Assembly: GCF_964204645.1 (NCBI RefSeq)
Contig: NC_134026.1
Location: forward strand, 310,001 to 374,000
Reading direction: 5' to 3'
DNA length: 64,000 bases
Source of the DNA: Tubulanus polymorphus
Lineage: Eukaryota; Nemertea; Palaeonemertea; Tubulaniformes; Tubulanidae
Shown: positions 363 to 62,354 of the stretch, one piece after another
Position numbering within the stretch: position 1 is the first letter of the stretch
How the letters are laid out: the number at the start of each line of letters is the position of its first letter
Program-made: the position numbers and the translations under genes
The notes under the pieces: generated by a model
Database searches by the model: none
Told to the model about the DNA's origin: nothing
The model's input: only the letters and a program-made list of their open reading frames with translations

Positions 363-2479
363 CGATGCCACTACAGGGGGCGTTGCGAATATGAATCTCA
401 TCGAGACCTAAACCATATCTATTATACTTTTTGTATATCTGTCTAAGTTCGAACACAATCTGAAATATTAAATTGAAATCAACATTATATTTCAGTCTCT
501 GAATAGTTACATTGACAAAATGTTGTGAAATACTGATGAAAAATAACTTAGTAAAGTTAAGACCCTCGAAAATGTTTCTACAAAACACACTTTTGATATT
601 AGTTTATCGCTTGTTCGTGACGATAGAAAATATAAGTTTCCAAGAATTAGTTACCAGGAATTGATAAGCGGACGGTACAAAGCTGACAGAAACTTTAATC
701 CAACGTGAATCACTGGAAGGTATTTTCCAATTTGTAAGAAATTTCAGCGACATTTTATCCGCATCATCGCCTCGTGAACCTTCATAGACGCTTAACTTAG
801 TCATCTGATTTCGAATATTCGCATTCGTGAACCAAAAATCTAAACATTTCCAGCCTTTATCCCACGTACGGATGATCGGTGTACTGATGACAATTTCTCG
901 GGGATAGGGACCCATCGTTAACAAATAATGACCCATCTTAGTACCATCTGTAAAATAACAAAACGAACATTAATCTTTTGGACGATTAACTATTTCTTAA
1001 GCCGGTAAATTCAACAAATATAGTTTCAGACTTTTTAGAGATTATGATCTATTTACATTAAGAGTGAACAAGGAAGTGGTTAGATTACGGTATGTCCTAT
1101 ATTTTCTTCATTATTTAAATCATGATTTCAAAAATGCTCTCTATCACGGGACTTTCCATATTTCCTTTATTATTTACATCATGATTTCAAAAATGCTCGC
1201 AATAGAATCGATTTCCTTTTGTAATTCATCTGAATGAATCATGATGCGTGTAGAGCATGGACGATAGATTCATGGTCAAAGCGAACTTACATTTCGTGAC
1301 GTCCTCATTTGGAGAGGAGTACTTTGCCAGCACTACCCGGGTGATATTAGCATGCTCGTAGTAATCCACATTACAGGAGCCCTTTTCAAATCCACAATAA
1401 AATAGATCTATATGAAGTAAAAGAAAAAACAGAATTAAAGAATACACACGTGGATATATAGAAGAACACAGCATGGAATCTTCAGACGTTAGGCCTCCTA
1501 TTACCTGAGTTAGAATAGGGTCACAACGAAATATACCTGTTTGCATACAATAAAAATGTTAAGATTGATAATAGATTTCATTCACAACAACGTTTCAGGC
1601 TACTAGCTAGGGGGTAGTCTTAAAACGGAGAGAATGCAACTGATTTTCAAAATATGATCTATATATTTTTTCCATTTCATTGGTTCGGTGCCAATGCTCA
1701 GGACCTCAAGATCAAATTCTAAATCACGTGTTCTCTTTACATTTGGAGTAAAGTTTAATATATATGAACACACGTATATGTGCACAGATCTATTTCAAAC
1801 AGATTTTTATTGACAATGTAATCGATGTCACACGCGCCCCTAGTTAAATGTAAACCTCGTGGTAGCCTGGTAAATATACCGAAATGTCATCTCTGTAAAT
1901 ACGATCGTATGTGACAAGGCGTGGCACATGTCCAACATGTGTGTACTGGTAGTACATATCCATCACCTCTATCAATGCAGCTGCAATGAATATTTGAAAG
2001 AAATGTGACTAAAATCATTAGTTATATAGTCAGGTAGCAGAGTTTTGGCGGGGGATCAGGGCGGAGGTCTAACCAAAAGTCCAAGATGCCGTTTGAGTAA
2101 GACAGACATTTGGGCCGCGATACAGTAATGGTAAATGTAGACATATTTCCAGGCTTAGTGAAATATACCTAAACGTTTTTGATACTAGATAATACTAGAT
2201 ATAGGACATTAACCATCTGGTTTGAGAATCTGTTTTCCAAGCGCGATCGTGTCGTTATAATGAGTATTCCCAACCACAGTTGTGGGTAACATCGATAGAA
2301 CGATACAAAAAGCGAACCGGAGAGATGTATATACTACAGATACGGTATAGTCGATAGGACAAAAAACCACCATCGATTCTATCCTTACCTTTCACGAGAC
2401 TCTGGGACGGCTCCGATATTTGCAGCACTAAAAGTAACGTGATTACACCACAGGTCACATAACCACAACCTCGAATCAT
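363..2479 (-). CDS. MAM-like domain membrane/secreted protein, 3' end missing
   Basis: Spliced minus-strand gene; coding exons 2479-2389, 1407-1291, 947-655 and 459-363. Junction phases are 1, 1, 0, 1 and every boundary has GT/AG. The start at 2479 opens a signal peptide (MIRGCGYV, then a Leu/Val-rich core). The ectodomain shows MAM-like landmarks: a Cys-x-Phe-Glu start (YCGFEKGSC), a KCLDFWF strand, a Trp-containing strand and a closing LDEI...C motif at the end of exon 4. The Asp-Trp motif of standard MAM domains is not obvious, so this is a divergent member. The exon that should carry the transmembrane segment is not found before position 1. The gene is the head-to-head paralogue of the plus-strand gene starting at 3442. 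MAM domains mediate cell-surface adhesion or receptor pairing; the exact role here is unknown. Confidence 0.72.
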
Positions 2480-3441: not shown

Positions 3442-6255
3442 ATGCGAGGATTATTCGAATATTTGTCTATTTTTGTTTTACTTAACATCCATGAATGTGA
3501 GTATTTCGTTGTAATTATAATAAGCTAAATATGACGTATAGATTCTGTCTCTATAACTACGTGTTGAACCTAAGTGTCTGATGTACCACAGGTTGGTACA
3601 CTAGGATCGTAGAGCAACGTAGATCACTGCGGAGACAACCTGCCAGGACTTGGTGAAGTAAAATTCTGTGATATAATGAATATTGTATCTATCTACACCT
3701 TTGATTTTCACATGAAGCGGAATATTTGATAAGAATGTAACTGATTTTTACAGTTTAAAAACCGTGGTCCCGTCGTGAGGTTAAACGAACGATCATATAA
3801 ATATGGTTAGGCTTGGGAAACCCAGATCAAAACGACGTAAATAAAGTTGAATGATCATAGCCAAAACTTATGTCTAACAATGAAATGAAAATCACATTTC
3901 AAAGGTTTGAAAAATTGAATCATACAGTTTATATAGTTCTACGCTCGCCTATAAAAATACGTTATATCTAAATAGAACCGATTTTATCGGAGTACTTCCT
4001 GGTAAAAACCATTAATGCATTAACGATTTTTAACGCCGTAAAAACCGTTACAATTATATATACATTGATACCTTAAAAATGCGTTATTCAAGGGGCTCTG
4101 TATGAGTCGATGTTCACTACGTCATCAATATTCGCGTTTCAAAATAACAATTACAAATGTGAATTTTGGCGTTTGAGTTTATAATTAAATGTATTTCATT
4201 TTTGATGAATTTTAATAATAATTTTGAGAGGATGTGCATTACGTCATCGCTCTATCGGGGATAGACTGGTTGCCGGGCAATTCAATTCAATTATCGATAT
4301 ATTCAAATCAAAATAACGATATATGTTTTATTTTTCAAGGGGTCAATAAAGTTTCTTGTTTTTCGATCGAACAGGTTTCGGGGATATCGCGTGGAGATGC
4401 GACTTCGAAAAACCGGGAGAATGTGGACTGACACATAATAAATACTGCGCAGCACGACACGTCAAAGAGTTGAATTATTACAGTAAGATTGCAATACATA
4501 TATGTATATATTGTCACACCACATTTAAGATACTGAAAAAGAAATCATTTTAGTCGTCGTCGGGTTCGTTATAAACACCTCACTGCGCCCAAAGTCTCGC
4601 CGATATTGATATGCATAACGATATTTTCATCAGTTTTGAAAGAATATCAAAGATCTCAAAATTTATATATTTTGAAATTTAATTTATCATGAATTTCTTC
4701 GAATTAGTACGTTTGTCTCACTTAGGAATATCTCAAATAGAAACGTATATGATCTATCAGATTACTATTGTCTATGCCGAAGATCGTTCACATTCGTACT
4801 GGGCACAAATTGCTTGTAAATTACGTTATACCATGGACGTATAATCTAGTTTATACGTCCATGGTTATACACACTAATGGATGACCCAGCGTAATGGATG
4901 TATAAAAATGCATATAAAAGATACCAAAATGTATAGAAGAATTTATTGGGTGTTTCAGTAAAAACCGGCGATGTTGGACCTCGGGGATTCGATCATATAA
5001 TGGAATGTGTGGTAGAGGTACCTATAGACCTAACTATGGACCCGAAAAAATCTGAATCTGCCAGTTCCGTCAAACTACGAAAAGGCAATAAATGTCTGCA
5101 GTTTTGGTACGCGAAATTCGGTCCATCGATGACATACACGTTGACTTTTACGACGAACTACTCGTCAGAATCTCCGGCTAAAAATTGGAAATTCGTCATC
5201 GCGACGCCTTCCGATAATTACGATGGAATGTGGCTGAAAATGACCAAAGAGTTCACGATTCCTGACGATACAAATCTCGCTGCTTTAAAGGTAAATTTGG
5301 GATATGTTTAAGGTGGGATAAGTTGCACACACGTTAACCAGCGGATGAATATGATTGTACTAATCACCATGTCAGTTATCCGCTAGTTTACTCGGGAGTA
5401 GTTTACCCCCGGTTTATGGCTCTGATTCTAAACGATCGTTTTGCAGTTTAAACTACGACCTTCGGTTCGAGGAGTTTCATACACGATATTGCTGGACGAT
5501 TTGGAAATATCAGATTCTTGTAACGACATCGGTATGTATCAATAACATTGAAACATTAGAAAATAAACTATAGTCGACGATGATCTCTAGGATGAGATCG
5601 AAACGTCGTGTATTTTATATATTTTAGATTTTTCGGATAAATAAATTCTTGGTTTTTAAAATTCTTTTAATTTCTAATAGTTGGTTTTTTTATCTTATAA
5701 ACTATAGTCGATTTTTAAGTGCAATCTTACATATACATCGTTATAAATATATTGATTTTATGTTAATTTTCCGATAAACATATAATACTGTGATTAACCG
5801 ATGAGAAAGGATTGTTACAAGTGGAAAACCTAAACTTTGCGCTGCTTTATTTGATAAACTAGAGATTTTTAATGTTCACGTTATATTTTAAATCGTGTCT
5901 CGTTACAGATGAAGAAACTCATGGATCAATTAATTCTTTGATAAGAGATAACACATTCGGCGCGATAATCGGAGCAGTCGTTGGGGTGATGATACTTATA
6001 TCGGCCATTTTTATCGTGAATCATTTTTATCGCCTTAAACCGACCGAAGCGGGCGCGTTGGAAAGTCTGAGAAGGGTTAACGAAGACGTGAATTCCCGTC
6101 GCGGTTCATCTAAGAGGAGATCTTACCGGCGAATTCTCGGATTTAAAGCGGCATTGCCTCAGTATCACGCCGCAAATACAATCAATTCTCAATACAAGTC
6201 GCAGTTTTCATCTAGTAGAAAATTGTACCACGATTTCGGCCCAGAAGACGTCTAA
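3442..6255 (+). CDS. MAM-like single-pass membrane protein, complete (308 aa)
   Basis: Coding exons 3442-3496, 4375-4482, 4959-5290, 5447-5531 and 5909-6255; phases 1, 1, 0, 1; 927 nt in total. Residues 1-18 form a short signal peptide (MRGLFEYLSIFVLLNIHE). The ectodomain (about 19-205) has MAM-type marks: RCDFEKPGECG near residue 26, KCLQFWYAKFG in exon 3, a W-rich strand, and LLDDLEISDSC closing the domain. A Gly/Val/Ile-rich transmembrane helix lies at about 210-231. It is followed by a 77-residue cytoplasmic tail with a basic patch (RRGSSKRRSYRR) and the C-terminus GPEDV, which fits a class III PDZ ligand. A likely poly(A) signal AATAAA is at 6618-6623, with a second at 6711-6716. It probably acts as a type I cell-surface adhesion or receptor protein; no enzyme domain is present. 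Confidence 0.8.
3764..3830 (+). mobile_element. SINE core fragment in intron 1 of the MAM-like gene
   Basis: The stretch GTGGTCCCGTCGTGAGGTTA plus a GCTTGGGAAACCC block about 40 bases later is repeated at 24026-24096, where it follows a tRNA-like head. This copy lacks the head and is a truncated fragment. The shared core is seen directly; the family name is not determined. Confidence 0.5.
4830..4865. repeat. Perfect 14-bp inverted repeat, intronic
   Basis: ACCATGGACGTATA (4830-4843) and its exact reverse complement (4852-4865) flank an 8-base loop in intron 2 of the MAM-like gene. It could be a tiny foldback remnant. The stem is too short for a typical animal pre-miRNA. Confidence 0.5.
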
Positions 6256-11034: not shown

Positions 11035-12713
11035 ATGTATTATCTCACAAGTGAAGCAATAATCTTTGCGATGTTGGCGGTGATGATTCTAGTTCAAAGA
11101 AGCGCCGCATTTTCAGTGCGAAGAAGAACTTTTGCGTCATCGCCGGCGTCGGATAGCCAGCTGCGCAGTTTAGGATTTAGTAACAACCTCGTAAATAAAG
11201 ATTATTTTGAAGGCGGATTATCCTCGGCACGCGGTCGACGCGTGATACAAACAGCAAGAAGGAGTAGGAGAAATGCAGTAACAGTTGAAGACGCTATCAT
11301 TCGTAATATAGTCACTCATTCGTGGGATCTACGTAAATTCGCCATCGAAGCTTACGATTTTTATGTAAGTCATAGCTTCGAAATATTTTTGACTCGTAAT
11401 TCATGATTTGCGCTCTGTGTATTTCGAGTGTTTCAGATTCCTTACATTCCCAAACAGACACGAGTCTCATCTATCTAGAGTCTTACCTAGCCGTCATATC
11501 GTCTTATCTCTGTCAGATATTCATATTAGATTTGTTTTCATTTTCAGTGTAGTATAATGAAAGATAATATTCCTAGCGAGATCTATTCGAGCTGCAAACA
11601 ATTATCGATGTCTTACGTGAATGCGGAAGAGTTGAATATACCGAAATTATACGTTTACAAAGTGAATACACTCGGTAGTAAAGCTGAGGACATGGATCGT
11701 TTGGTGAGTTGTTTATACTTACAAAATACTATAATTTCTATATAGAAAATTACTATGCATAATCTGCTTCGTTAACAACGAAAGATAATCGCATCGTTTA
11801 AACCACATCATCCCTATTAACATAACATTTCATCAATTGGTTAATTACAAAAATTACTTCCTTAATTTTCATTGACGCGAAATAACATACATATATTGCT
11901 TATGCAGATAAATCAATGTCAATGTAATTTGTTGTAGTTAGTTGAAGCGTTTGAAACGCTGTCAAAAATGAAATTCGTAGTGGCGAATATAACAACAATG
12001 GAAGAAGATGTAACTTGTCAGAAGAGAGTAAGTGTTGGACTTCCGTGTAAACAATGTCAAGGATCTAGCAAACATTTCTGGTGTTATCTGATGAACGTAG
12101 AAAAACGACTGAACGCTTTAAACGAACATTTACGGCTGAATGTAAGTATCCCCTTGTTCTAGTCACTGCTAAACTTGTTTTAATATTTGATTTGTGTCGC
12201 GCAAACGAGTGATTATAGTTACATCAGTTCACAGGAGCTGAGTACAGACACATAAAACATGATACCAAATGACAAAAATGTCTAGACGAAAGTCAACAAT
12301 TCAATGATTGTAGTTAATCTTAGTCTAAAAGTTATTTTCAATGCTACGAACTAGAAGGCTGATTATTGATGATTGCGTCTGTTTCTAATGTACAAATTTG
12401 GTGTAAAATTTGGTCCAAGTAATTCGTGAGATTATTTTCGAAAAAGTGACCGTTTCGTGGTATCAGAAAGTAACGGTTTACCGATTCTATTGTTGTATAC
12501 TAGAAACGACTGTCAGACTGTTGACTAATCTATTCGATATTATATATCTTTCAGTCTCCGCGATTGTTTCACAAATCTGGACCGACGATCAACATCGACA
12601 ATCCGTCATTGACTGAATCGATGCGGATGGTTTATAACTTCGCAGCTTTACACCGGATAGTCGAGCAGTCCGATCAGACCTACCGAGCATTTCACTTCCT
12701 ATTAAATCTATAA
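11035..12713 (+). CDS. Secreted four-helix cytokine-like protein (282 aa), candidate class I/IL-6-LIF type
   Basis: Coding exons 11035-11364, 11548-11703, 11938-12141 and 12555-12713; all three introns are phase 0 with GT/AG ends. Residues 1-26 are a signal peptide (core AIIFAMLAVMILV). A furin site RSRR at residues 76-79 would release about 203 residues. The mature part reads as four amphipathic helices: A about 83-116 (VEDAIIRNIV... into CSIMKDN), a Pro-containing AB loop, B about 158-186, C about 208-230 (FWCYLMNVEKRLNALNEHL) and D about 252-281 (MRMVYNFAALHRIV...), ending right after helix D. Six cysteines (111, 126, 189, 199, 202, 211) and an N-glycosylation site NIT at 179 fit a secreted ligand. 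Exon-to-helix layout (signal+A | AB loop | B+C | D, phase 0) matches vertebrate class I cytokine genes. There is no recognised close homologue; alternatives are another helical hormone or a lineage-specific secreted protein. Confidence 0.75.
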
Positions 12714-15388: not shown

Positions 15389-16784
15389 TCAGGGCACATA
15401 AGTCGGGTTTTTGAAAGTTTGAACCTCAGTTCGAGTTTCAGTTTCGCTTGATGTCACTGGTTGTTCGATGGATTTGATTTCGGTCCGTTCGATTTTTTCG
15501 CAAACCGTTTCAATCACCGCCGCCGTTTCTTCGTCTTTTTGATTCTTCTTGAAACATGGAATCAGTGTTTTTTCGACAGTCGCGTACGTGCAGTAGAAAC
15601 AAACTATAGCTAATGGAATCGATATCGAAGTTCCGATGATAATCTTCAGTTTGAAATTGGACGGATATTCGTAATATTTACCGCGAGCTCGATACGTATT
15701 CTGGGCTATTACTTTCTTTATAGGTGGCGCTGTGGTGGAACCTGTGGTCATATTAACTGGCGATTCGGTAGAAGTGTTTCTCATTGTTAGAATTCGTCGG
15801 CTTCGTCGTTTGAATATAGGTGGCGCCTTCTGACCCCATGTATACATTCCTTGTTTGGTCGTCCCATTTTCACGTATGATAAGATGGTTGCGAAATTCTT
15901 TACTGACAGTCGCCCCAGCTTCGGTCGCGCGCACCAAATGTACCCCTAAATAAACAAAGGAGAAAACTCAAATTACGCAAACCTCGCATTCAAATCTTTA
16001 ATCAAATAATTTAGAATTACAATTAACCACAAATTATCTTTTTAAATTGAAACAGTACTAAATTTGTAAGTGTCACGATATTCAGTGATAGACGAATTTG
16101 ATATATGAATTTCTGGAGAAATAGAGAAATAAAAAGCTAACAATTAACTGTATTTTGATGATGAGGATTCATCAGATTTTATAGAGTATTCTATTTAATT
16201 AAATTCGTTCCTGATATTAATGAATACATTCCAAAGTTGTGGTGGTTCATGGATGGATCAATACGCCTCGAATCGAGAACTAGACGATGCTGTAGTGTGT
16301 AAAACAGTATCGTAAAAAAAAGTATCGAAATCGGCGAACTTTAAATGTATATGTACGTTATGTTTAAATGCTATCGAATATTGATAATCACTTAAAATGC
16401 ACTGCAGCGCGTTACATATATATATAGACCCAGGGGAAATAGACTGAATTCTGGAATCAAATCCAACCGTACATGTACAGTACTGTGGAATATATTGCAT
16501 CCGGTTGCCAAAATTAAGTTAAATTTTTGTAAACTGGTTTCCATATTCAACCGTTGTATCCAATTGTTTTTGGTATAGACTATGTGTGTAATGAAAATTG
16601 TTCACATCAATGAAAACCTTTTTTAAGAAAATATCAATTTTGTTGTTGTAAATTTTTTGGTTAATATTTTTTGTAACGAACAATTTCATACGTGTATATT
16701 CTAAACCGATTTGCGACACTCACCTACAAATACAAATATCCATAACGATATTCCAGTAACTGACGAGCTGAACGGTTCATTCAT
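15389..16784 (-). CDS. Single-pass type I membrane protein of unknown family (205 aa)
   Basis: Two coding exons, 16784-16724 and 15945-15389; phase 1 junction G|GG with GTGAGT donor and TTTAG acceptor; 618 nt. The start ATG opens a signal peptide (hydrophobic ISLWIFVFVGVHLV). A short ectodomain follows (about residues 27-121) with three N-glycosylation sequons (47, 77, 85) and a basic RRSRR cluster at 67-71 that could be a furin-type cleavage site. The transmembrane helix is at about 122-144 and has two cysteines. The acidic cytoplasmic tail ends in NPTY (residues 200-203), an NPxY motif known to bind PTB domains or clathrin adaptors. No conserved ectodomain is recognised. It is unrelated in sequence to its neighbours. 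A receptor-like or adhesion role is a guess. Confidence 0.65.
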
Positions 16785-17611
16785 TTCATAATTGATTCAA
16801 ACTAACATGCGAAACATATATCCTTTATAGAAAACCTCTTCTAAATGTACCGTACTATTTCTTGACATCAAGTACACTTCATTGTAATAATTAGATGGGA
16901 TCCTCGTCAGTAGTTTAAATGGACGACGCTTCAATCACTGAACTATATGATATATATATATATACGTTACGATCGGTTGCTAGTGATTCCACGCGATACT
17001 GCCATAATAATTCATCAAGTTCTATGTTTTGTTGATGCTGCGCCACTTGAATCATTTAGATTACTAAATCATTTATGATCGTTTTAATATCGAACTTAAA
17101 AGCGGCGTACTGTCCGCTTTTCATTTAGCTAATTAATTCTATGTAAGCCGTGCGTTGTTTTGGTATCTAGGCATACAATGTATGTTGTTGCTATTGTTTT
17201 TTTGTATTTTGTTTAAAAGATGTTTTGATAATGGAAATCAACTTATCAAATACCAAGAAAGTTGGCAAGACTCGTGGTAAAAACACTCGAGAAATAATCG
17301 AGATATGTTTGAATCACAGTTTTATTCGTATTTTAGAAATCGTTTTGTATACAAACAAATCTTAATCAATATTGCATGAAAAATAAAACACAAATACATT
17401 TCATTTTACCCGAACACAAGATTAATGAGTATAAAATAAGTTAACATTGTCAATTCAATACTCATTTAAATCCTAAAGAAGTCGTTGATTATTTTTTAGC
17501 ACAATTTGTATTTCCAATTCAATCGACTAAGAGTAAATCATCATTTGGATAACACAATCATCAAGTTTTATATTTATTTCACAGTTGATAAATCTCTATT
17601 ATCACAATCAT
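16785..17611. other. Intergenic, no gene seen
   Basis: AT-rich spacer with a short TA microsatellite near 16,950. TTTATT (reverse AATAAA) at 17321-17326 and 17573-17578 are candidate poly(A) signals for SEPSECS on the minus strand. Confidence 0.4.
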
Positions 17612-20600
17612 TCAATCATTTAATGATTTCTCATCATCCTGAGGTTTATTCTTATCGGTGTCATCATCAATCTGTTGAATCATCACCGATTGATCGAGAA
17701 ATTGAGATTTCCATTTCGATAAAACTTTGTCTAATCGTTTAATGAAATCGTCCACTTCGTTGATAGTCATTCCTATAGCAGCAGCAGCGGTTAAATACAC
17801 ACAGGGATATCGACTACTATGAGCTCCAAAACCGTCAAATTTAAATCCACTAATCTCTTTAACTTCCCCATGTGCGACAACCCTAGAAAACAAAATACAC
17901 ATATCCTATAATTCATGATGGTTGGTTAGAAACAGTTCTTGTCAACATAAGCGGTTACTGATCACAATCTGGAAAGATCTGAGCTCCACATTATTTGGCT
18001 TTAAAGGGATTATAATGCCAGACACTTTTCTTGAATTTTTCACAATTTTTTTAACAATTTTAGCAAACATTCACATATTTGACACCCGTGAAATTATGGC
18101 CAAGGAATCTTCATTGATTTGTTCATATGCGAGACTCTCTGACGAGGAGGAAGGTATTTTACCTAGTGCCGGAAACATTGCGTTTGAAGAGCATCGAACC
18201 AAACTGAGTCGCAGCAATAGAATCATCAACAGTTCCCACAGGTATCGTTAGACTCATACCTATTCATTAAAACATCAATTAGTTAATACATCATGTCTAA
18301 AGTTTTAAAACATCGTTTATACTCGATCAATAATGGACCATATTACATTTATCTACATCCTGGAAACAAAATACGTTTCCAATAAATTCAATTAGAAAAT
18401 AAATTTATGATGAAATAATTTTTAAGTCAATCTACAGTATTTAAAACGAAATGTCATCTCTTACCTAATGATATAGTATTACTGGGCGTATGAAGGACTC
18501 TTTCGCCGTGTTTGGCAGCACATTCTGATAATTGCTGTTTCAGATAGGTAAAAACTTCCTTCCTCTGTTTCAGCAAAGCTTTGTAACCGTTAGCGCCGAG
18601 CGATAGTAACGTGATGAATATATCTAGACTAGGTGTCCCTGACGCACGACCTCATTAAATATAAACAACTTAATTAAAACACTTTTTTATCTCTGTTTCT
18701 GATGATAAAACCTAAATTAAATTTCCTGTAAAATTTTTATGTATCTGCGGGGTTCTTAGATCAGCAAATCCAAACTTCCCTCAATTTCCTGACCCTTGAC
18801 GAAAGTTCCCTGATTTTAATTATAAGTCACACTCAGTGAGGACTAGTTCTCACCAAGAGGTTCCTTGTGCCACTCGTCACCAGCAAGAATGACAAGACAC
18901 CAAAAATTCAAATTCCCTATAATATTCTCTAGTTTTCGAGAAAAATATTCAAAATTCCCTGATTTTCCTGATCTGCAGGAACCCCGATCTTTTCGTTTAC
19001 CTGGATAAAATTTTCCAATCTCATCGATAAATTTACTATCGAATCCAGCTATCACAGCACCTCCAACCGGCACTAGAAAGTTCTTATCAGTGCTCTGTAT
19101 AAATGCATCTACACGTCCACATTTATGAGCCTGAAAGATAACAATATATCACAACTCAACTGTAAAATAGCCTCTATGAGTGATCTTAAAAACAGAGTTA
19201 AATACTCCTAAAGTTTCTAAATGTCTTGTCGCTTCATACCTGTTGTATAAGATGCATACATTTAGAGGATTGAATACCATAAGCGTTATTGACTAGGTGT
19301 GGAATGTCATGTGTACTGCATAATCTGCTAATCTCCTCTAACCTGAAATAAACAATCCATAAAAATAAATATTCAAACAAGATAGCCAGAAATATAGCAT
19401 CATCGTCGAACAACACTTTCTTACTTATCAGGCCCCCTCGGAGCAAAACAGCTAGTTGTGGAAAGAATACAAACTATATTTTCTGGACCGAGCTCCGTAA
19501 TTTTTGACTTCAAGTCTTCAACGTGCGTTCTTAATTCATCTCCTTGTAAATCGTTTTCAAGGACGATTGGCACGAAACCTATAGCAAAACATAAGCATCA
19601 TCAAATCTGTAAATAACAGCAATTCAGCGTTTATGATATTTCTATGAACCTGGTCATTTTAACATCATTTTCATGACTTTCCAGGTCTGGAATTTAACAT
19701 TTCAGTGAACAGCAAAAGCAAGATAAAATATTTTTCATACCCGCAGAAATTATAGCCTTGAAACATGATTTTTGGTCGATTCGAGGCCAAATGACGTATT
19801 TCGCTTTTGGTCGTCTAGGACGCAGAGCTAATAAACATAATACCATTGTCATCCCTGTTGCCATGGGGACTATAAAACCAGCCGTTACTGACTGCACACC
19901 TACGTAGAAAATAAAATTCAAAGATTGTGAATTCACAGCAGACACTGAACTAGCGGCATTTAAATACATGCCTGCTAATTTGATAATATCGATAGTTTTA
20001 AATACGTGCCTGCTAATTTGATAATATCGATAGTTTGAAATACATGCCTGCTAATTTGATAATATCGATAGTTTGAAATACATGCCTGCTAATTTGATAA
20101 TATCGAGCACCATTGCATTAGCGAGTTTCATAATTAGACTAGAACCAGCAGCTTTAGGTTGAACAGCTGTTATATCTCCAGAACGACCAATTCCATGACC
20201 TAACCTGAAAATATAACACACCGATCGGTTAATAGATCAATCTCATAGTTTCATTTAACAGGTTCCAAGAACAGCTAACTATCATAACTTGCTATTGATA
20301 TTTCTGATTGGGAAAATATCAAAAAGCACCAAAATCCATTCATAATTTATCAGATACTTAATCTTAAATCCGGCTAGTCTAATTTCTAATATGTTCCTCA
20401 AACAATGGTTGTAGGGGACCGTAACAACGTCTGGTATTCAGACTGGAATCAGGCTTATACCAAGCTCAAACTCTCACTTTCAGTTAAAGATGTTAAAACT
20501 GTTCAAATACCTGAAATGTCTTCTAGCCACTAATTGTGATACAATGCGAGCCTCACGTTCTCCAGCTCCGCAGTTATTCGGGAAATTATTACTGTCCATT

Positions 20601-21215
20601 AGAGATAAATCTTGTAACAACATTTCAATAGTTTCATCATCCCATCCTTCATTTGGTAGTTTTCTCTGAAACAAAAATTTTCAAAATCCCAGTGTGTAGA
20701 TTTGTAAGTACCGGAGTACCACAAAGGTTAAGCTACGGACCCGTGGGGCATTGTCTCGACAAATTATTGACGGAAAACCCGACAATTACATACCTAACTT
20801 ATATGAGTATTCCAGGACTCACTAATCTTACAACAAAAGTCGTAATTACTGTGATTGAAGAGATCACAGACACAAACTGGAGCACAGGGGCTCGTATTTG
20901 AATGAATAATTGAAGTTTGGGGTGAATTGTAGCTTAGATCATCCACAGTAGTACCAGGGTCCAGTTTCACAAAAAAGATTATTGGAGGACCTAAACTACA
21001 GTCCACCCCCAAACTTCAATCAAGTTAACAGTGGTTAAGTACGAGCCCTGGCCTGTGGTGGATGGAGAGTAAGTCGAATGATTATGAACTGAAGGACTTA
21101 CATGTTGCAGAAACACTTTCACGCGATTCTCTCTCGTTTTTAAAGCCTGACTCGCTTGTTCCACGTACGATGAAGGAATTATTTTTTCACACAGAGCAAA
21201 GTTGTTATCATTCAT
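17612..21215 (-). CDS. SEPSECS: O-phosphoseryl-tRNA(Sec) selenium transferase (SepSecS)
   Basis: PLP enzyme that converts O-phosphoseryl-tRNA(Sec) to selenocysteinyl-tRNA(Sec) with selenophosphate, the last step of Sec synthesis, in the cytosol. Ten coding exons on the minus strand: 21215-21102, 20665-20511, 20204-20086, 19899-19741, 19578-19425, 19342-19240, 19130-19001, 18650-18465, 18259-18163, 17882-17612. They total 1488 nt, 495 aa, against 501 aa in human. Diagnostic stretches include [90 protein letters not shown] and [16 protein letters not shown], where Lys284 falls at the number of the human PLP lysine. All junction phases agree. Exon 3 ends at a GC donor (AGCAG|GCATGT) whose surroundings are tandemly quadruplicated. 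Presence of the gene implies the animal makes selenoproteins. Confidence 0.97.
19971..20107 (-). repeat. 38-bp tandem quadruplication of the SEPSECS exon 3/intron 3 boundary
   Basis: Four 38-bp units run across the boundary. The unit nearest exon 3 contains the real exon end. Each unit carries the last 19 exonic bases (GATATTATCAAATTAGCAG) plus the GC donor. Using any later copy as donor keeps an in-frame TAG, giving a truncated protein, so the first is the productive one. Confidence 0.9.
20885..21050. mobile_element. hAT-like MITE in SEPSECS intron 1
   Basis: The two ends are imperfect inverted repeats: CAGGGGCTCGTATTTGAATG and, on the other strand, CAGGGCTCGTACTTAACCAC. Both are followed by a well-matched inner arm (TTGAAGTTTGGGG...TGTAG.TTAG.TC). 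Length is about 166 bp, with no transposase. The CAGGG terminus suggests hAT, but no clear 8-bp target duplication is seen. Confidence 0.6.
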
Positions 21216-21926
21216 TTCAATTTCATCGGTGAAAAACCAAGCAAATCGAAAAATATATTATTCCATATCAGGCGCAACGACCTTGACTTGAAGTGGATAT
21301 CACTAAAATCCGAATAAGAAATTGGATATTGTGAAAACAAGGAGCTAACCTAACCCTAATTTTCGCTAGGTGACCGTACGGTGCTGCCACCAAGTTTGGG
21401 CTGATGAATAGTGCGATTGAGTCGGTGTATCGTTTACTTCCGGGTTCGGAAAAAATCGGAAGCGAAGCCCGAAAAGTCGATTCATCAAGTAACGAAATAA
21501 AATATAGACTCAATATTTACCACAGATAGACAACTAACTGAGGATTATCAGTATTAGTGATTAAAGGTAAGATAAGTTTTCATGAACTTGTTCAAATCTA
21601 GAGGTTTCATTTCCTCGCTGTACTATTTACCAACAGAAACCGATGTCTGTCCTTCGCACTACACGTTATTGAGTGTCTAGTTTGGAACCCAAATTATCTA
21701 AAGCCCGAATCTGAAGTCATAAACGGTGAAATTTTGGCATCTATTTCAGTATTTCAACCTGGGCTTGGTTTTTTCAGTCACAGACTCACCCTCCTGCTGG
21801 ATTACAACCAATGTCCCATTGAAAGATTTCCCCAGTTCTACAATTTGCCTGAAATCATGAAACCCTGCCCCGTGGGTCGTATTTGGTAGGAAATAACCAA
21901 TTTGTATTGGTCTCCTTTATTTTCAG
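21216..21926. promoter_or_regulatory. Shared head-to-head promoter of SEPSECS and TTC1
   Basis: The start codons of SEPSECS (21215, minus) and TTC1 (21941, plus) are 725 bases apart. A consensus donor ATTAAAG|GTAAGA at 21566/21567 and an acceptor TTTTCAG ending at 21926 suggest a 5' untranslated TTC1 exon and a 360-base intron. A 16-base copy of the terminus of the 178-bp foldback element (ACCGTACGGTGCTGCC) is at 21373-21388. Confidence 0.5.
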
Positions 21927-21940
21927 GATATACATTGAAC

Positions 21941-23653
21941 ATGGCTGATGAGTCGTCTTGTAGCACAGTGGATCAACAAACAGTGATTCAAATGATGGAT
22001 AAATTAGAAAATAAATTAGAAATAGTTGAAGATGAGGAATCAGAATTAGAATCCGAGGATTCATTGATGGACGATGATTTTCACGATGCTATCGATAATT
22101 TAGAAATCAAGTCTTCCGATGATCCGTGGCCTGAGGATAAATCTAATGAAACCATTCCTCAGAATTCAGACAATTTAAAAACTCCTGAAAAGTGTTCCGC
22201 TGAGGAATCGAAAAATGTGGATAATTGTGATAAAGACAACTCGAATACGGAATCGAATAAACAATCTTCGATTCCTACTGATACAGACAATCCTAGCGGT
22301 GCTGATGGTTGCGATGAGGCGGTGAAAGAAGCTTTACAAGATTCAGAGCAAGATTCTGAAACCGAGGAAGATGAAGATGGATTAAAGGAGCTGAAACTTC
22401 TCGAAGAAACATTGTCTGAACAAGAAAAAGAGGTAGGCGTGGCCTAAAGCCGAACTCCCATTTTTAATCCCAATTTGTATTTGCAATTCAATATCTGATT
22501 TTTTTTTTCAGGAAAGAAAAGAAAAGGCTCAAGAATTAAAAGCGCATGGAAATGAATTGTTTAAAGACACTCAGATTAACGAGGCTAAAGAAGAATACAC
22601 GAAAGCCTTGAAACTTTGCCCTCTGTGTTTTAAAAAGGAGAGATCAGTGATGTATTCTAATAGAGCAGCTTGTCATATGAGACTCGTAAGTTTGAACTTT
22701 CACATTTTACAGTTTTAGTCATAATGAATACATTGCAAAGGTCCTAAATTTTAAGGAGTCCCTCAGAATATCAGCTTAAATGGTAATAATGTACTGGCAA
22801 TCTTTTACCCAGAAGCCCAGAGAATTTCTTAGCTTGTGCCAAAGTTACATAATCTCCTGGGAAACATCCCGTAACATTCACACATTATACAGGCTCAACA
22901 CAGGCCGTTTTTAAATCAACCACTCGATGCGGAGCTCCCGCGTCGTATTTTCCTGGATGCGACCTTGCTTTACATCACCTGTATTTCTACCTATAGGAAA
23001 ATACCGATACTGCTATCAGCGATTGTTCTAAAGCAATTGAGCTAAATCCTCGTTACACTAAATGCGTCCTGCGTCGAGCGGAACTTTACGACAAAACCGA
23101 CAAATTAGACGAAGCTCTGAAAGATTTCGAAAAAGTCATCGAATTAGAACCGACTAATCAAACGGTTCGGATCGCTTGCATGGTAAGCATTCGTCATTAC
23201 GTGAATCAATTTCTGATATTCTACTTTTAATTTCATGAATATTTTTACAGCAACTTCCAGAGAGGATCAAAGAACGAAATGAAAAAATGAAAGAGGAAAT
23301 GTTAGGTAAGGTTTTGTAACTTTTCTTTGGTAAACTTTCGTCTTCTATTTGATCGTGAGGTCATTTGTAATGTACTTCTCATAATTAAGATTGTTTACAT
23401 GGAGTTTGAAAGGCAACAGTATGCAACCCAGCCGCTGAATTTTAAATCTTCCAAGTTGAAATACGTTTTAAAACATGTTTGGATTCTTTAATCTCGTTAT
23501 TGATGAATGAATACCATTTGTTTTAAAGGCAAACTGAAAGATCTCGGCAATATGATATTGAAACCATTCGGTTTATCAACGAACAACTTCAACCTGCAAC
23601 AAGATCCAAATTCTGGAGGATATTCTGTATCATTCAATAACAACGGAAAATGA
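21941..23653 (+). CDS. TTC1: Tetratricopeptide repeat protein 1
   Basis: Coding exons 21941-22432, 22512-22685, 22997-23182, 23251-23305 and 23529-23653; phases 0, 0, 0, 1; 343 aa. Residues 1-164 are an acidic, low-complexity N-terminal region (many Glu, Asp and Ser), longer than in the 292-aa human protein. Three TPR units follow: [20 protein letters not shown], the [11 protein letters not shown]...[13 protein letters not shown] unit, and the [20 protein letters not shown] unit. The C-terminus ([20 protein letters not shown]) is the TTC1 signature. TTC1 family members are cytosolic adaptors reported to bind Hsp90/Hsp70 and Ras or G-alpha proteins. A poly(A) signal AATAAA lies at 23827-23832. 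Confidence 0.96.
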
Positions 23654-53316: not shown

Positions 53317-56300
53317 AAACTGGAGTATCCCGGGTTCAAACCCATCAATTGCTGTGATTCAGAGTGGTCCTGATGGATAAAGGATGAACAGGGGTATCCC
53401 GGGTTCAAACCCATCAATTGCTGTGATTCAGAGTGGTCCTGATGGATAAAGGGTGAACAGGGGTATCCCGGGTTCAAACCCATCAATTGCTGTGATTCAG
53501 AGTGGTCCTGATGGATAAAGGATGAACAGGGGTGTACCGACCGTACAGTGCTGCCGCTATGCTCATCGTTAGCGGGATTTCCATACACTAACTAAAGTCA
53601 ACTCTGGCAATCGACGTACTGTCCAGTTGTACTCCGTGACCTTAGCTTGCCAGAGTTGACTAACGTTAGTGTATAAAAATTCCGCTAACGATGAGCATAG
53701 AGGCAGCACCGTACGGTAAAATGTTGATATCTTAACAAAAGTAATTACTGATACTGATTCAGAGAGGTCCTGATGCTGAATAGAGGATGTACAGGGGTGT
53801 CTCGATTTTTAACCCATCAATTGCTGTGATTCAGAGTGGTCCTGATGCTGAATAGAGGATGTACGGGGGTGTCTCGATTTTTAACACATCAATTGCTGTG
53901 ATTCAGAGTGGTCCTGATGCTGAATAGAGGATGTGCAGGGGTATCCCGGGTTCAAACCCATCAATTGCTGTGATTCAGAGTGGTCCTGAGGCTGAATAGA
54001 GGATGTACAGGGGTATCCCGGGTTCAAACCCATCAATTGCTGTGATTCAGAGTGGTCCTGATGAATAAAGGATGAACAGGGGTGTACCGACCGTACAGTG
54101 CTGCCGCTATGCTGATCGTTAGCGGGATTTTCATACACTAACTAAAGTCAACTTTGGCAATCGACGTGCTGTCCAGTTATACTCCGTGACCTTAGCTTGC
54201 CAGAGTTGACTAACGTAAGTGTATAAAAATTCCGCTAACGATGAGCATAGAGGCAGCACCGTACGGTAAAATGTTGATGTCTTAACAAAAGTAATTACTG
54301 ATACTGATTCAGAGCGGTCCTGATGCTGAATAGAGGATGTACAGGGGTGTCTCGATTTCTAACCCATCAATTGCTGTGATTCAGAGTGGTCCTGGTGGAT
54401 AACGGATGTACAGGGGTATCCCGGGTTCAAACCCATCAATTGCTGTGATTCAGAGTGGTCCTGATGCTGAATAGAGGATGAACAGGGGTATCGCGTGTTC
54501 AAACCCATCAATTGCTGTGATTCAGAGTGGTCCTGGTGGATAAAAGATGTACAGGGGTGTCCCGGGTTCAAACCCATCAATTGCTATGATTCAGAGTGGT
54601 CCTGATGCTGAATAGAGGATGTACGGGGGTGTCTCGGGTTCAAACCCAGTAATTACTGATACTGATTCAGAGTGGTCCTGATGCTGAATAGAGGATGAAC
54701 AGGGGTGTCTCGATTTCTAACCCATCAATTGCTATGATTCAGAGTGGTCCTGGTTGATAACGGATGTGCAAGGGTATCCCGTGTTCAAACCCATAAATTG
54801 CTGTGATTCAGAGTTGTCCTGATGGATAAAGGATGTACAGGGGTATCCCGGGTTCAAACCCATCAATTGCTGTGATTCAGAGTGGTCTTGATGGATAAAG
54901 GATGAATAGGGGTGTACCGACCGTACAGTGCTGCCGCTATGCTCATCGTTAGCGGGATTTTCATACACTAACTAAAGTCAACTCTTGCAATCGACGTGCT
55001 GCCGAGTTGTACTCCGTGACCTTAGCTTGCCAGGGTTGACTAACGTTAGTGTATAAAAATTCCGCTAACGATGAGTATAGAGGCAGCACCGTACGGTAAA
55101 ATGTTGATAACTGATTCAGAGCGGTACTGATGCTGAATAGAGGATGTACAGGGGTGTCCCGTGTTCAAACCCATCAATTGCTGTGATTCAGAGTGGTCCT
55201 GATGGATAGAGGATGTACAGGGTTATCCCGGGTTCAAACCCATCAATCGCTGTGATTAAGAGTGGTCCTGATGGATAAAGGATTAACAGGGGTATCCCAG
55301 GTTCAAACCCATCAATTGCTGTGATTCAGAGTGGTCCTGATGCTGAATAGAGGATGTACGGGGGTATCCCGGGTTCAAACCCATCAATTGCTGTGATTCA
55401 GAGTTGTCCTGATGGATAAAGGATGTACAGGGTTATCATGGGTTCAAACCCATCAATTGATGTGATTCAGAGTGGTCCTGATGCTGAATAGAGGATGTAC
55501 GGGGGTATCCCGGGTTCAAACTCATCAATTGATGTGATTCAGAGTGGTCCTGATGCTGAATAGAGGATGTACGGGGGTATCCCGGGTTCAAACCCATCAA
55601 TGGCTGTGATTCAGAGTGGTCCTGATGGATAAGGGTTTAACAGGGGTATCCCAGGTTCAAACCCATCAATTGCTGTGATTCAGAGTGGTCCTGATGCTGA
55701 ATAGAGGATGTACGGGGGTATCCCGGGTTCAAACCCATCAATTGCTGTGATTCAGAGTTGTCCTGATGGATAAAGGATGTACAGGGGTATCTCGGGTTCA
55801 AACCCATCAATTTCTGTGATTCAGAGTGGTCCTGATGCTGAATAGAGGATGAACAGGGGTATCCCGGGTTCAAACCCATCAATTGCTGTGATTCAGAGTG
55901 GTCCTGAGGCTGAATAGAGGATGTGCAGGGGTATCCCGTGTTCAAACCCATCAATTGCTGTGATTCAGAGTTGTCCTGATGGATAAAGGATGAACAGGGG
56001 TGTACCGACCGTACAGTGCTGCCGCTATGCTCATCGTTAGCGGGATTTTCATACACTGACTAAAGTCAACTCTGGCAATCGACGTGCTGTCCAGTTATAC
56101 TTCCGTGACCTTAGCTTGCCAGAGTTGACTAACGTTAGTGTATAAAAATTCCTCTAACGATGAGCATAGAGGCAGCACCATACGGTAAAATGTTGATAAC
56201 TGATTCAGAGTGGTCCTGATGCTGAATAGAGGATGTACGGGGGTGTCTCTGGTTCAAACCCTTCAATTGCTGTGATTCAGAGTGGACCTGATGCTGAATA

Positions 56301-59300
56301 GAGGATGTACGGGGGTGTCTCGGGTTCAAACCCATCAATTGCTGTGATTCAGAGTGGTCCTGATGGATAAAGGATGTACAGGGGTGTCCCGACCGTACAG
56401 TGCTGCCGCTATGCTCATCGTTAGCGGGATTTTCATACACTAACTAAAGTCAACTCTTGCAATCGACGTGCTGCCGAGTTGTACTCCGTGACCTTAGCTT
56501 GCCAGGGTTGACTAACGTTAGTGTATAAAAATTCCGCTAACGATGAGTATAGAGGCAGCACCGTACGGTAAAATGTTGATAACTGATTCAGAGCGGTACT
56601 GATGCTGAATAGAGGATGTACAGGGGTGTCCCGTGTTCAAACCCATCAATTGCTGTGATTCAGAGTGGTCCTGATGGATAGAGGATGTACGAGGGTGTCC
56701 CGTGTTCAAACCCATCAATTGCTATGATTCAGAGTGGTCCTGATGCTGAATAGAGGATGTACAGGGGTGTCTCGGGTTTAAACCCAGTAATTACTGATAC
56801 TGATTCAGAGAGGTCCTGATGTTGAATAGAGGATGTACAGGGTTATCCCGGGTTCAAACCCATCAATTGCTGTGATTCAGAGTGGTCCTGATGCTGAATA
56901 GAGGATGTACGGGGGTATCCCGGGTTCAAACCCATCAATTGCTGTGATTCAGAGTTGTCCTGATGGATAAAGGATGTACAGGGGGTATCTCGGGTTCAAA
57001 CCCATCAATTGCTGTGATTCAGAGTGGTCCTGATGCTGAATAGAGGATGTACGGGGGTGTCCCGGGTTCAAACCCATCAATTGCTTTGATTCAGAGTTGT
57101 CCTGATGGATAAAGGATGTACAGGGGTATCCCGGGTTCAAACCCATCAATTTCTGTGATTCAGAGTGGTCCTGATGCTGAATAGAGGATGAACAGGGGTA
57201 TCCCGGGTTCAAACCCATCAATTGCTGTGATTCAGAGTGGTCCTGAGGCTGAATAGAGGATGTGCAGGGGTATCCCGTGTTCAAACCCATCAATTGCTGT
57301 GATTTAGAGTGGTCCTGATGGATAAAGGATGAACAGGGGTGTACCGACCGTACAGTGCTGCCGCTATGCTCATCGTTAGCGGGATTTCCATACACTAACT
57401 AAAGTCAACTCTGGCAATCGACGTGCTGTCCAGTTGTACTCCGTGACCTTAGCTTGCCAGAGTTGACTAACGTTAGTGTATAAAAATTCCTCTAACGATG
57501 AGCATAGAGGCAGCACCGTACGGTAAAATGTTGATAACTGATTCAGAGCGGTACTGATGCTGAATAGAGGATGTACAGGGGTATCCCGTGTTCAAACCCA
57601 TCAATTGCTGTGATTCAGAGTGGTCCTGATGCTGAATAGAGGATGTACAGGGGTATCCCGGGTTCAAACCCATCAATTTCTGTGATTCAGAGTGGTCCTG
57701 ATGCTGAATAGAGGATGAACAGGGGTATCCCGGGTTCAAACCCATCAATTGCTGTGATTCAGAGTGGTCCTGAGGCTGAATAGAGGATGTGCAGGGGTAT
57801 CCCGTGTTCAAACCCATCAATTGCTGTGATTTAGAGTGGTCCTGATGGATAAAGGATGAACAGGGGTGTACCGACCGTACAGTGCTGCCGCTATGCTCAT
57901 CGTTAGCGGGATTTCCATACACTAACTAAAGTCAACTCTGGCAATCGACGTGCTGTCCAGTTGTACTCCGTGACCTTAGCTTGCCAGAGTTGACTAACGT
58001 TAGTGTATAAAAATTCCTCTAACGATGAGCATAGAGGCAGCACCGTACGGTAAAATGTTGATAACTGATTCAGAGCGGTACTGATGCTGAATAGAGGATG
58101 TACAGGGGTATCCCGTGTTCAAACCCATCAATTGCTGTGATTCAGAGTGGTCCTGATGCTGAATAGAGGATGTACAGGGGTATCCCGGGTTCAAACCCAT
58201 CAATTGCTGTGATTCAGAGTGGTCCTGATGGATAAAGGATTAACAGGGGTATCCCAGGTTCAAACCCATCAATTGCTGTGATTCAGAGTGGTCCTGATGC
58301 TGAATAGAGGATGTACGGGGGTATCCCGGGTTCAAACCCATCAATTGCTGTGATTCAGAGTGGTCCTGATGGATAAAGGATTAACAGGGGTATCCCAGGT
58401 TCAAACCCATCAATTGCTGTGATTCAGAGTGGTTCTGATGCTGAATAGAGGATGAACAGGGGTATCCCGGGTTCAAACCCATCAATTGCTGTGATTTAGA
58501 GTGGTCCTGATGGATAAAGGATGAACAGGGGTGTACCGACCGTACAGTGCTGCCGCTATGCTCATCGTTAGCGGGATTTCCATACACTAACTAAAGTCAA
58601 CTCTGGCAATCGACGTGCTGTCCAGTTGTACTCCGTGACCTTAGCTTGCCAGAGTTGACTAACGTTAGTGTATAAAAATTCCTCTAACGATGAGCATAGA
58701 GGCAGCACCGTACGGTAAAATGTTGATAACTGATTCAGAGCGGTACTGATGCTGAATAGAGGATGTACAGGGGTATCCCGTGTTCAAACCCATCAATTGC
58801 TGTGATTCAGAGTGGTCCTGATGCTGAATAGAGGATGTACAGGGGTATCCCGGGTTCAAACCCATCAATTGCTGTGATTCAGAGTGGTCCTGGTGCTGAA
58901 TAGAGGATGTACAGGGGTGTCCCGTGTTCAAACCCATCAATTGCTGTGATTCAGATTGGTCCTGATGGATAGAGGATGTACGGGGGTGTCCCGTGTTCAA
59001 ACCCATCAATTGCTGTGATTCAGAGTGGACCTGATGCTGAATAGAGGATGTACGGGGGTGTCTCGGGTTCAAACCTATCAATTGCTGTGATTCAGAGTGG
59101 TCCTGATGGATAAAGGATGTACAGGGGTTTCCCGACCGTACAGTGCTGCCGCTATGCTCATCGTTAGCGGGATTTTCATACACTAACTAAAGTCAACTCT
59201 TGCAATCGACGTGCTGCCGAGTTGTACTCCGTGACCTTAGCTTGCCAGGGTTGACTAACGTTAGTGTATAAAAATTCCGCTAACGATGAGTATAGAGGCA

Positions 59301-62300
59301 GCACCGTACGGTAAAATGTTAATAACTGATTCAGAGCGGTACTGATGCTGAATAGAGGATGTACAGGGGTGTCCCGTGTTCAAACCCATCAATTGCTGTG
59401 ATTCAGAGTGGTCCTGATGGATAAAGGATGAACAGGGGTGTACCGACCGTACAGTGCTGCCGCAATGCTCATCGTTAGCGGGATTTTCATACACTAACTA
59501 AAGTCAACTCTGGCAATCGACGTGCTGTCCAGTTATACTCCGTGACCTTTGCTTGCCAGAGTTGACTAACGTTAGTGTATAAAAATTCCTCTAACGATGA
59601 GTTTAGAGGCAGCACCATACGGTAAAATGTTGATAACTGATTCAGAGTGGTCCTGATGCTGAATAGAGGATGTACGGGATGTCTCTGGTTCAAACCCTTC
59701 AATTGCTGTGATTCAGAGTGGACCTGATGCTGAATAGAGGATGTACGGGGGTGTCTCGGGTTCAAACCCATCAATTGCTGTGATTCAGAGTGGTCCTGAT
59801 GGATAAAGGATGTACAGGGGTGTCCCGACCGTACAGTGCTGCCGCTATGCTCATCGTTAGCGGGATTTTCATACACTAACTAAAGTCAACTCTGGCAATC
59901 GACGTGCTGCCGAGTTGTACTCCGTGACCTTAGCTTGCCAGGGTTGACTAACGTTAGTGTATAAAAATTCCGCTAACGATGAGTATAGAGGCAGCACCGT
60001 ACGGTAAAATGTTGATAACTGATTCAGAGTGGTCCTGATGCTGAATAGAGGATGTACAGGGGTGTCCCGTGTTCAAACCCATCAATTGCTATGATTCAGA
60101 GTGGTCCTGATGCTGAATAGAGGATGTACAGGGGTGTCTCGGGTTTAAACCCAGTAATTACTGATACTGATTCAGAGTCGTCCTGATGCTGAATAGAGGA
60201 TGAACAGGGGTGTCTCGGGTTTAAACCCAGTAATTACTGATACTGATTCAGAGTGGTCCTGATGCTGAATAGAGGATGTACAGGGTTATCCCGGGTTCAA
60301 ACCCATCAATTGCTGTGATTCAGAGTGGTCCTGATGGATAAAGGATTAACAGGGGTATCCCAGGTTCAAACCCATCAATTGCTGTGATTCAGAGTGGTCC
60401 TGATGCTGAATAGAGGATGTACGGGGGTATCCCGGGTTCAAACCCATCAATTGCTGTGATTCAGAGTGGTCCTGATGGATAAAGGATTAACAGGGGTATC
60501 CCAGGTTCAAACCCATCAATTGCTGTGATTCAGAGTGGTCCTGATGGATAAAGGATGAACAGGGGTATCCCGGGTTCAAACCCATCAATTGCTGTGATTC
60601 AGAGTGGTCCTGATGGATAAAGGATGAACAGGGGTGTACCGACCGTACAGTGCTGCCGCTATGCTGATCGTTAGCGGGATTTTCATACACTAACTAAAGT
60701 CAACTCTGGCAATCGACGTGCTGTCCAGTTGTACTCCGTGACCTTAGCTTGCCAGAGTTGACAAACGTTAGTGTATAAAAATTCCTCTAACGATGAGCAT
60801 AGAGGCAGCACCGTACGGTAAAATGTTGATAACTGATTCAGAGCGGTACTGATGCTGAATAGAGGATGTACAGGCGTATCCCGTGTTCAAATCCATCAAT
60901 TGCTGTGATTCAGAGTGGTCCTGATGCTGAATAGAGGATGAACAGGGGTATCCCGGGTTCAAACCCATCAATTGCTGTGATTTAGAGTGGTCCTGATGGA
61001 TAAAGGATGAACAGGGGTGTACCGACCGTACAGTGCTGCCGCTATGCTCATCGTTAGCGGGATTTCCATACACTAACTAAAGTCAACTCTGGCAATCGAC
61101 GTGCTGTCCAGTTGTACTCCGTGACCTTAGCTTGCCAGAGTTGACTAACGTTAGTGTATAAAAATTCCTCTAACGATGAGCATAGAGGCAGCACCGTACG
61201 GTAAAATGTTGATAACTGATTCAGAGCGGTACTGATGCTGAATAGAGGATGTACAGGGGTATCCCGTGTTCAAACCCATCAATTGCTGTGATTCAGAGTG
61301 GTCCTGATGCTGAATAGAGGATGTACAGGGGTATCCCGGGTTCAAACCCATCAATTGCTGTGATTCAGAGTGGTCCTGATGGATAAAGGATTAACAGGGG
61401 TATCCCAGGTTCAAACCCATCAATTGCTGTGATTCAGAGTGGTCCTGATGCTGAATAGAGGATGTACGGGGGTATCCCGGGTTCAAACCCATCAATTGCT
61501 GTGATTCAGAGTGGTCCTGATGGATAAAGGATTAACAGGGGTATCCCAGGTTCAAACCCATCAATTGCTGTGATTCAGAGTGGTCCTGATGGATAAAGGA
61601 TGAACAGGGGTATCCCGGGTTCAAACCCATCAATTGCTGTGATTCAGAGTGGTCCTGATGGATAAAGGATGAACAGGGGTGTACCGACCGTACAGTGCTG
61701 CCGCTATGCTGATCGTTAGCGGGATTTTCATACACTAACTAAAGTCAACTCTGGCAATCGACGTGCTGTCCAGTTGTACTCCGTGACCTTAGCTTGCCAG
61801 AGTTGACAAACGTTAGTGTATAAAAATTCCTCTAACGATGAGCATAGAGGCAGCACCGTACGGTAAAATGTTGATAACTGATTCAGAGCGGTACTGATGC
61901 TGAATAGAGGATGTACAGGCGTATCCCGTGTTCAAATCCATCAATTGCTGTGATTCAGAGTGGTCCTGATGCTGAATAGAGGATGTACGGGGGTATCCCG
62001 GGTTCAAACCCATCAATTGCTGTGATTCAGAGTGGTCCTGAGGCTGAATAGAGGATGTGCAGGGGTATCCCGTGTTCAAACCCATCAATTGCTGTGATTC
62101 CGAGTTGTCCTGATGGATAAAGGATGTACAGGGGTGTCCCGGGTTCAAACCCATCAATTGCTGTGATTCAGAGTGGTCCTGAGGCTGAATAGAGGATGTG
62201 CAGGGGTATCCCGGGTTCAAACCCATCAATTGCTGTGATTCAGAGTGGTCCTGATGGATAAAGGATGAACAGGGGTGTACCGACCGTACAGTGCTGCCGC

Positions 62301-62354
62301 TATGCTCATCGTTAGCGGGATTTTCATACACTAACTAAAGTCAACTCTGGCAAC
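53317..62354. repeat. 9-kb satellite of 69/72-bp B-box-bearing monomers with embedded foldback elements
   Basis: The monomer is GGGTATCCCGGGTTCAAACC, then CATCAATTGCTGTGATTCAG and AGTGGTCCTGATG, closed by either GATAAAGGATGAACAG (69 bp) or CTGAATAGAGGATGTACAG (72 bp). I estimate 80-90 monomers. Most hold GGTTCAAACCC, matching the Pol III B-box pattern GGTTCRANNCC. At irregular intervals a 178-bp foldback element interrupts them (15 left arms, 14 right arms). Long minus-strand frames exist only because the lengths are multiples of three. The array ends abruptly in the middle of a foldback element at about 62,354. Confidence 0.95.
53540..53717. mobile_element. 178-bp foldback/MITE unit, first of 15 in the satellite
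   Basis: The left arm ACCGTACAGTGCTGCCGCTA, TGCTCATCGTTAGCGGGATT, T.CATACACTAACTAAAGTC, AACTCTGGCAA pairs with the reverse complement of the right arm, which ends GAGGCAGCACCGTACGGT. Arms are about 70 bp with about 40 bases between. Further copies begin near 54,080, 54,910, 56,000, 56,390, 57,345, 57,870, 58,535, 59,135, 59,445, 59,825, 60,640, 61,025, 61,685 and 62,280 (the last lacks its right arm). The terminus also occurs alone at 21373-21388. Confidence 0.85.

Follow-up and report, generated by a model that had tools for sequence, protein, structure and literature searches.

What kind of protein is encoded at 11035-12713 of a 64,000-nucleotide stretch of the nemertean Tubulanus polymorphus genome (RefSeq assembly GCF_964204645.1, contig NC_134026.1, positions 310,001 to 374,000 of the forward strand; hereafter the window, numbered from its first letter), and can a class I helical cytokine exist in such a non-vertebrate? 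A genuine gene lies at this position, and its small protein product is apparently secreted. Judging from its gene layout, its predicted helices and the signalling pathway found in the same genome, we consider it probable that the protein belongs to a furin-processed family of class I helical cytokine-like ligands.

The question matters in light of a disparity in the animal record: JAK/STAT signalling has been reported in invertebrates, accompanied in some phyla by receptors of class I, but few ligands are known to go with it (Upd, a shrimp lectin and an amphioxus growth hormone (GH)-like protein). A 2026 survey of 18 metazoan phyla or subphyla describes IL-6 family ligands as restricted to vertebrates, lists Upd for insects and a lectin ligand for a crustacean, and states that IL-6-like ligands were not found in most invertebrates (PMC13203501). 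Upd is the invertebrate JAK/STAT ligand of Domeless (PMC5385356; PMC7378365), and Upd2 has been modelled as a four-helix bundle (PMC5385356). Amphioxus is credited with a GH-like hormone of low identity to the vertebrate members and with several further type I genes, the same source stating that type I helical cytokines went undetected in sea squirts and acorn worms (PMC9010856). Further accounts concern a putative Drosophila helical cytokine (PMC2248247) and two class I receptors in a sea squirt (PMC1963337). The protein described here would share with Upd and the amphioxus hormone, on their published descriptions, the standing of an invertebrate helical cytokine. No report of such a family turned up in the part of the open-licence literature that was searched.

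A family of four genes with a common exon plan and six cysteines

Exon-by-exon translation of the window gene, using exon models predicted from the genomic sequence, yields a precursor of 282 residues whose stop codon ends at 12713 (+). All three introns, with splice sites read from the sequence, are of the GT-AG type and in phase 0. The initial methionine is followed by a hydrophobic stretch which, judged by eye, is signal-like, and the part C-terminal to a furin-type RSRR site comprises 203 residues. An earlier sequence-only reading of this DNA had described four joined exons, a 282-residue product, RSRR at residues 76-79 and a mature part of about 203 residues, all of which our direct reading and translation bear out. 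The features of the gene are listed below, where A to D denote the predicted helices and AB, BC and CD the links between them.

11035-11364 (+): coding exon 1, with signal-like start, pro-segment, furin-type site and helix A; ends in EAYDFY, followed by the donor gtaagt
11260-11271 (+): RSRR furin-type site, residues 76-79, the presumed point of cleavage
11365-11547 (+): intron 1, phase 0, GT-AG, in an identical alignment column in all four copies
11548-11703 (+): coding exon 2, with the AB loop, including an IP motif, and the start of helix B
11704-11937 (+): intron 2, phase 0, GT-AG, in a column common to the three paralogs and displaced from it by two columns in the window gene
11938-12141 (+): coding exon 3, with most of helix B, the BC loop with conserved cysteines, and helix C
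12142-12554 (+): intron 3, phase 0, GT-AG, in an identical alignment column in all four copies
12555-12713 (+): coding exon 4, with the CD loop, helix D (MVYNFAALHRIVEQS...) and the stop codon
13580-13585 (+): candidate poly(A) signal AATAAA, marking the probable 3' end of the gene

A search of the genome (268 Mb in 77 contigs, those mentioned here being called C1, C2 and C6) with the window protein recovered nine matches at expectation values (E) up to 10. Four of these are its own exons and four are exons of three other genes, namely P10 (7.2e-7 and 0.022), P11 (0.013) and P12 (0.43); the ninth, on C6 (E 1.3), was taken as noise. A consensus sequence covering exons 3 and 4 recovered eight matches, all of them exons 3 or 4 of the same four genes, at E 6.9e-24 to 7.7e-7, values that are inflated by the consensus having been built from these very genes. 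P12 as query likewise gave eight matches, again confined to the four genes; as only the best candidates were scored, further distant copies may exist. For each paralog, the first two exons were located upstream with fitting splice sites, and the three loci are:

P10: C2, 1,215,303-1,218,545 (+)
P11: C1, 3,136,386-3,137,798 (+)
P12: C2, 31,062,465-31,055,258 (-)

The four genes, on C1 and C2, are all intact and form a family with one exon plan. Comparison of their products showed that: 1) the mature parts are 199-214 residues long and 26-31% identical, with 23 of 225 alignment columns invariant. 2) Each copy has exactly six cysteines, the same six throughout and none ahead of the end of helix A, spaced 14-62-9-2-8 in the window protein. 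3) A tyrosine precedes intron 1 in a single alignment column, and exon 2 opens with a conserved cysteine codon, in all four copies; in the window gene the AB-loop cysteine codons are at 11548-11550 and 11593-11595. 4) An RxRR site lies directly N-terminal to helix A in three copies (RSRR in the window protein, RVRR and RTRR in two of the three paralogs), its place being taken in P11 by a KK pair. 5) P10, P11 and P12 all have a phase 1 acceptor site in the region of the hydrophobic stretch. No start methionine lies ahead of this stretch in P10 and P11, and an in-frame one is present in P12, so that the former two probably, and the latter possibly, have a small exon further upstream. Such an acceptor recalls the IL-6 and GH genes, whose first intron is in phase 1.

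Because three diverged and intact paralogs share the exon plan and the six cysteines, the family is not a chance pattern. The gene model is a predicted one, and one could suppose that it consists of chance open frames or represents a decayed copy. Paralogs at 26-31% identity have nevertheless kept all six cysteines along with open frames and splice sites, which requires selection, and we give the absence of a functional gene hardly any credence.

Gene layout and predicted helices

With helices assigned to exons by hydrophobic-moment prediction, the layout of the family reads signal plus helix A, AB loop, helices B plus C, and CD loop plus helix D, separated by three phase 0 introns. This plan and these intron phases are those published for the genes for IL-2 (PMC6070626) and IL-4 (PMC4905449), both short-chain class I cytokines of vertebrates. 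The nemertean proteins differ from the latter in their greater length, their furin-type pro-segment, their different cysteines and the lack of profile similarity. We weight the gene layout above sequence because fast-changing cytokines evade sequence searches, as two controls illustrate: human LIF run against PDB gave nine matches (seven LIF chains and two unrelated proteins) and human CNTF gave five (two CNTF and three unrelated). Neither cytokine retrieved the other, so that little can be concluded from an empty sequence search.

For the prediction of helices, hydrophobicity was averaged over the four aligned proteins and 18-residue windows were each compared with 500 shuffles, the p values being uncorrected. 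A raised 100-degree moment coincides with good helix propensity in four segments of the mature protein, whose boundaries were set by eye:

11278-11364 (+), mature residues ~3-32: predicted helix A, best window p ~0.04, uncorrected
mature residues ~75-110: predicted helix B, p 0.002
mature residues ~129-155: predicted helix C, p 0.03
mature residues ~171-203: predicted helix D, p at most 0.002 over the second half

Prediction thus provides the four amphipathic helices by which class I cytokines are recognized. The AB link is long, with 45-51 residues from the first cysteine to the invariant leucine of helix B, and the BC link has 21-27 residues between its outer cysteines; the CD link has 21-26 residues from the start of exon 4 to an invariant serine. 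Helix B displays the pattern L.E....L..M.F...NIT, so that the motif previously pointed out in this helix is present, two of its spacings having been given one residue too long. AlphaFold2, applied to exon 3 alone without relatives, returned a helix-loop-helix with helices at 2-18, 25-32 and 44-67; the best model has a mean predicted local distance difference test score (pLDDT) of 73.8 and a predicted template modelling score (pTM) of 0.56, and the mean pLDDT of the other four is 57.8-66.8. This model, which is of moderate confidence and covers that exon and not the whole fold, fits helices B and C.

Phase 0 introns are also found in the genes of class II helical cytokines, the interferon (IFN)/IL-10-like proteins, which could on this account be considered as relatives. 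Class II cytokines, however, have six helices and a different exon split, against the four main helices predicted here, two of them carried by exon 3. Profile comparison using hhalign (see below) gave probabilities of 0.09% for IL-10 and 0.1% for IFN-alpha2. Hence, although an IFN-like protein of the oyster has been put forward as a class II-like molecule of a mollusc (PMC9756803), we regard a class II origin as very improbable.

A JAK-type segment, a STAT locus and the search for a receptor

The genome encodes at least one STAT, at a locus on C6 where three Pfam matches over cut-off fall in one place; the survey cited above gives seven STATs for vertebrates (PMC13203501). The one STAT locus located and the 268 Mb size of the genome agree, indirectly, with a non-vertebrate source. 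Searches for markers of phylum returned nothing, namely those for COX1 (matched in 8 of 14 controls) and for mollusc haemocyanin and annelid haemoglobin linker (each without a match in any control). A JAK-type FERM frame lies on C2 near 7.425 Mb, with FERM_F1 at 33.6 bits (cut-off 26.1) and FERM_F2 below its cut-off. The JAK is accordingly a putative one, recognized by its FERM segment.

Candidate receptors were looked for with two Pfam profiles and one sequence query. IL6Ra-bind had no match over the genome, nor in the control genomes, and EpoR_lig-bind reached E 0.56 at best, with two prokaryote controls also matching below cut-off. A segment of human gp130 gave 61 matches, 38 of them within one 88-kb stretch of C1, and 15 of the 61 were examined. 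At positions 749-1024 of a locus near C1:24.04 Mb (L050), WSLWS occurs in an fn3-type frame adjoining a long fn3 array. The array, we presume, is usherin-like, and the frame is probably not a cytokine receptor.

Comparison with the IL-6/LIF family

The sequence-only reading had assigned the protein to the IL-6/LIF/CNTF type and had proposed a profile comparison with these families. Using hhalign, we compared the family with 19 helical proteins, of which 15 were cytokines and 4 were unrelated, and the best probability was 1.89% (IL-11), with 0.45% for LIF and 0.1% for IL-6. IL-11, CNTF and apoE beat all 30 of their own shuffles, and the other 16 proteins did not. Neither the window protein nor the four-member alignment matched LIF_OSM, IL6 or related Pfam models. 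The LIF_OSM profile run over the whole genome gave no support either, a result of little weight as the control genomes also yielded no match.

If the family were a direct member of the gp130 group (IL-6, LIF, CNTF, OSM, CLCF1), one would expect the site-3 determinant of these ligands, which one study describes as FXXK or tryptophan at helix D (PMC10022904). None of the four copies has either where helix D begins, no helix D contains tryptophan, and the sole FXXK within a helix D belongs to P10 (FYEK) and lies close to its C-terminus. Furthermore, with no cysteine before the end of helix A, the N-terminal disulfides of the LIF/OSM type are missing. What is shared with the gp130 cytokines is a similar size (~180-200 residues in the latter), an AB loop with proline and cysteine, and a presumed JAK/STAT output; helix A ends in Tyr-Tyr in both LIF and P12 before such a loop, and hhalign pairs the AB-loop cysteine, as well as the last part of helix A, with their counterparts in LIF, at an insignificant score. 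Given in addition the vertebrate-only distribution of such ligands in the survey cited above, LIF/IL-6 membership is not supported by the sequences, and we consider it improbable. The notion of a class I cytokine accordingly survives at the level of the superfamily, on the strength of the layout, the four predicted helices with a long AB link and the JAK-type FERM and STAT matches, and finds no support at the level of the IL-6/LIF/CNTF family.

Weighing a class I ligand against an unrelated helical protein

Several results weigh against a class I affinity: 1) neither Pfam nor PDB gave more than chance matches, if any, whether the window protein or the four-member alignment served as query. 2) hhalign gives no support because the negative control apoE performs like the best cytokines, scoring above 13 of the 15. 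3) The helix moments are modest, with uncorrected p values of ~0.03-0.04 for A and C and no significance in the first half of D, and a stretch of the AB loop (~39-61) with poor helix propensity is also significant (p 0.004). 4) The CD link is no longer than BC, so that the long CD crossover typical of many members of class I is not evident. 5) No class I receptor was identified, the searches described above having given fn3 matches or noise.

These observations bring into play a different explanation, namely that we are dealing with an unrelated secreted, all-helical and disulfide-bonded family, such as a growth factor, a hormone precursor or a protein with a structural or defence role, in which the likeness of the exon plan to that of class I cytokines is a coincidence. 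The lack of profile similarity to cytokines, a CD link that does not exceed BC in length and the missing receptor speak for it, and to our knowledge the 14-62-9-2-8 spacing of the six cysteines matches no known cytokine. In particular, the recount of the CD link led us to lower our confidence in the class I affinity and in the more specific proposal given below, and to raise that in an unrelated family. Yet the coincidence would have to extend to the order of the helices, to three phase 0 introns at class I positions and to a size of ~200 residues. Moreover, Pfam offers no other family either, and the missing sequence match is a weak argument in view of the LIF and CNTF controls. On balance we hold this explanation to be unlikely, if far from negligible. 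Saposin-like and odorant-binding proteins, which are likewise helical with six cysteines, were set aside on account of the lack of a Pfam match and a cysteine spacing different from that of the nemertean family.

Returning to the class I affinity, the more specific proposal of an undescribed, furin-activated, three-disulfide family that retained the gene layout of class I and provides the ligands of an invertebrate pathway running from class I receptors through JAK to STAT is one that we advance tentatively, with the balance of belief nearly even. In the class I reading that we favour as a whole, furin-type proteases would release the mature protein of ~203 residues, which would fold as an up-up-down-down four-helix bundle of the class I kind. 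The bundle would be held by three disulfides, the six cysteines being placed at the ends of helices or within the links AB and BC. The mature protein might then act as an extracellular ligand that bridges class I receptor chains of the Domeless, gp130 or CRLF3 kind, and the bridged chains would activate the JAK and STAT of this genome. The four copies could be parallel ligands differing in receptor preference or in the time and place of their expression.

Should the layout have been inherited, a cytokine gene of the A/AB/BC/D plan would predate the vertebrates. The exon plan, the cysteine signature and the core of helix D together offer a handle for searches in other phyla, and the four members supply candidates for receptor pairing. 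Sequence search by itself cannot settle membership among the cytokines.

Other features of the window

The 3' region of the window gene contains eight ATTTA motifs, against one or two in the paralogs. This number was reached by 20.9% of 1000 shuffles, by 0.9% of 1228 other stretches and by 1.5% of 67 AT-matched stretches; with the statistics so mixed, a reading as mRNA-instability signals was set aside. About 3 kb from the gene, a 192-residue frame at 15389-15967 (-) combines a membrane-like segment with an RRSRR site and has no Pfam match worth naming. Exons of two putative neighbour genes lie at 17600-20700 (-) and 21900-23230 (+), the former presumably belonging to SEPSECS (selenocysteine synthase) and the latter, as we take it, to a gene resembling TTC1 (tetratricopeptide protein 1). 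Open frames at 604-969 (-) and 4937-5311 (+) show weak MAM-domain matches below cut-off, and the second is followed by a transmembrane-like frame at 5863-6255. At the far end, 55637-62334 (-), six long frames are made up of near-identical copies of a single repeated unit (HSESQQLMGLN.GYPCTSSIQ-like) arranged in an array.
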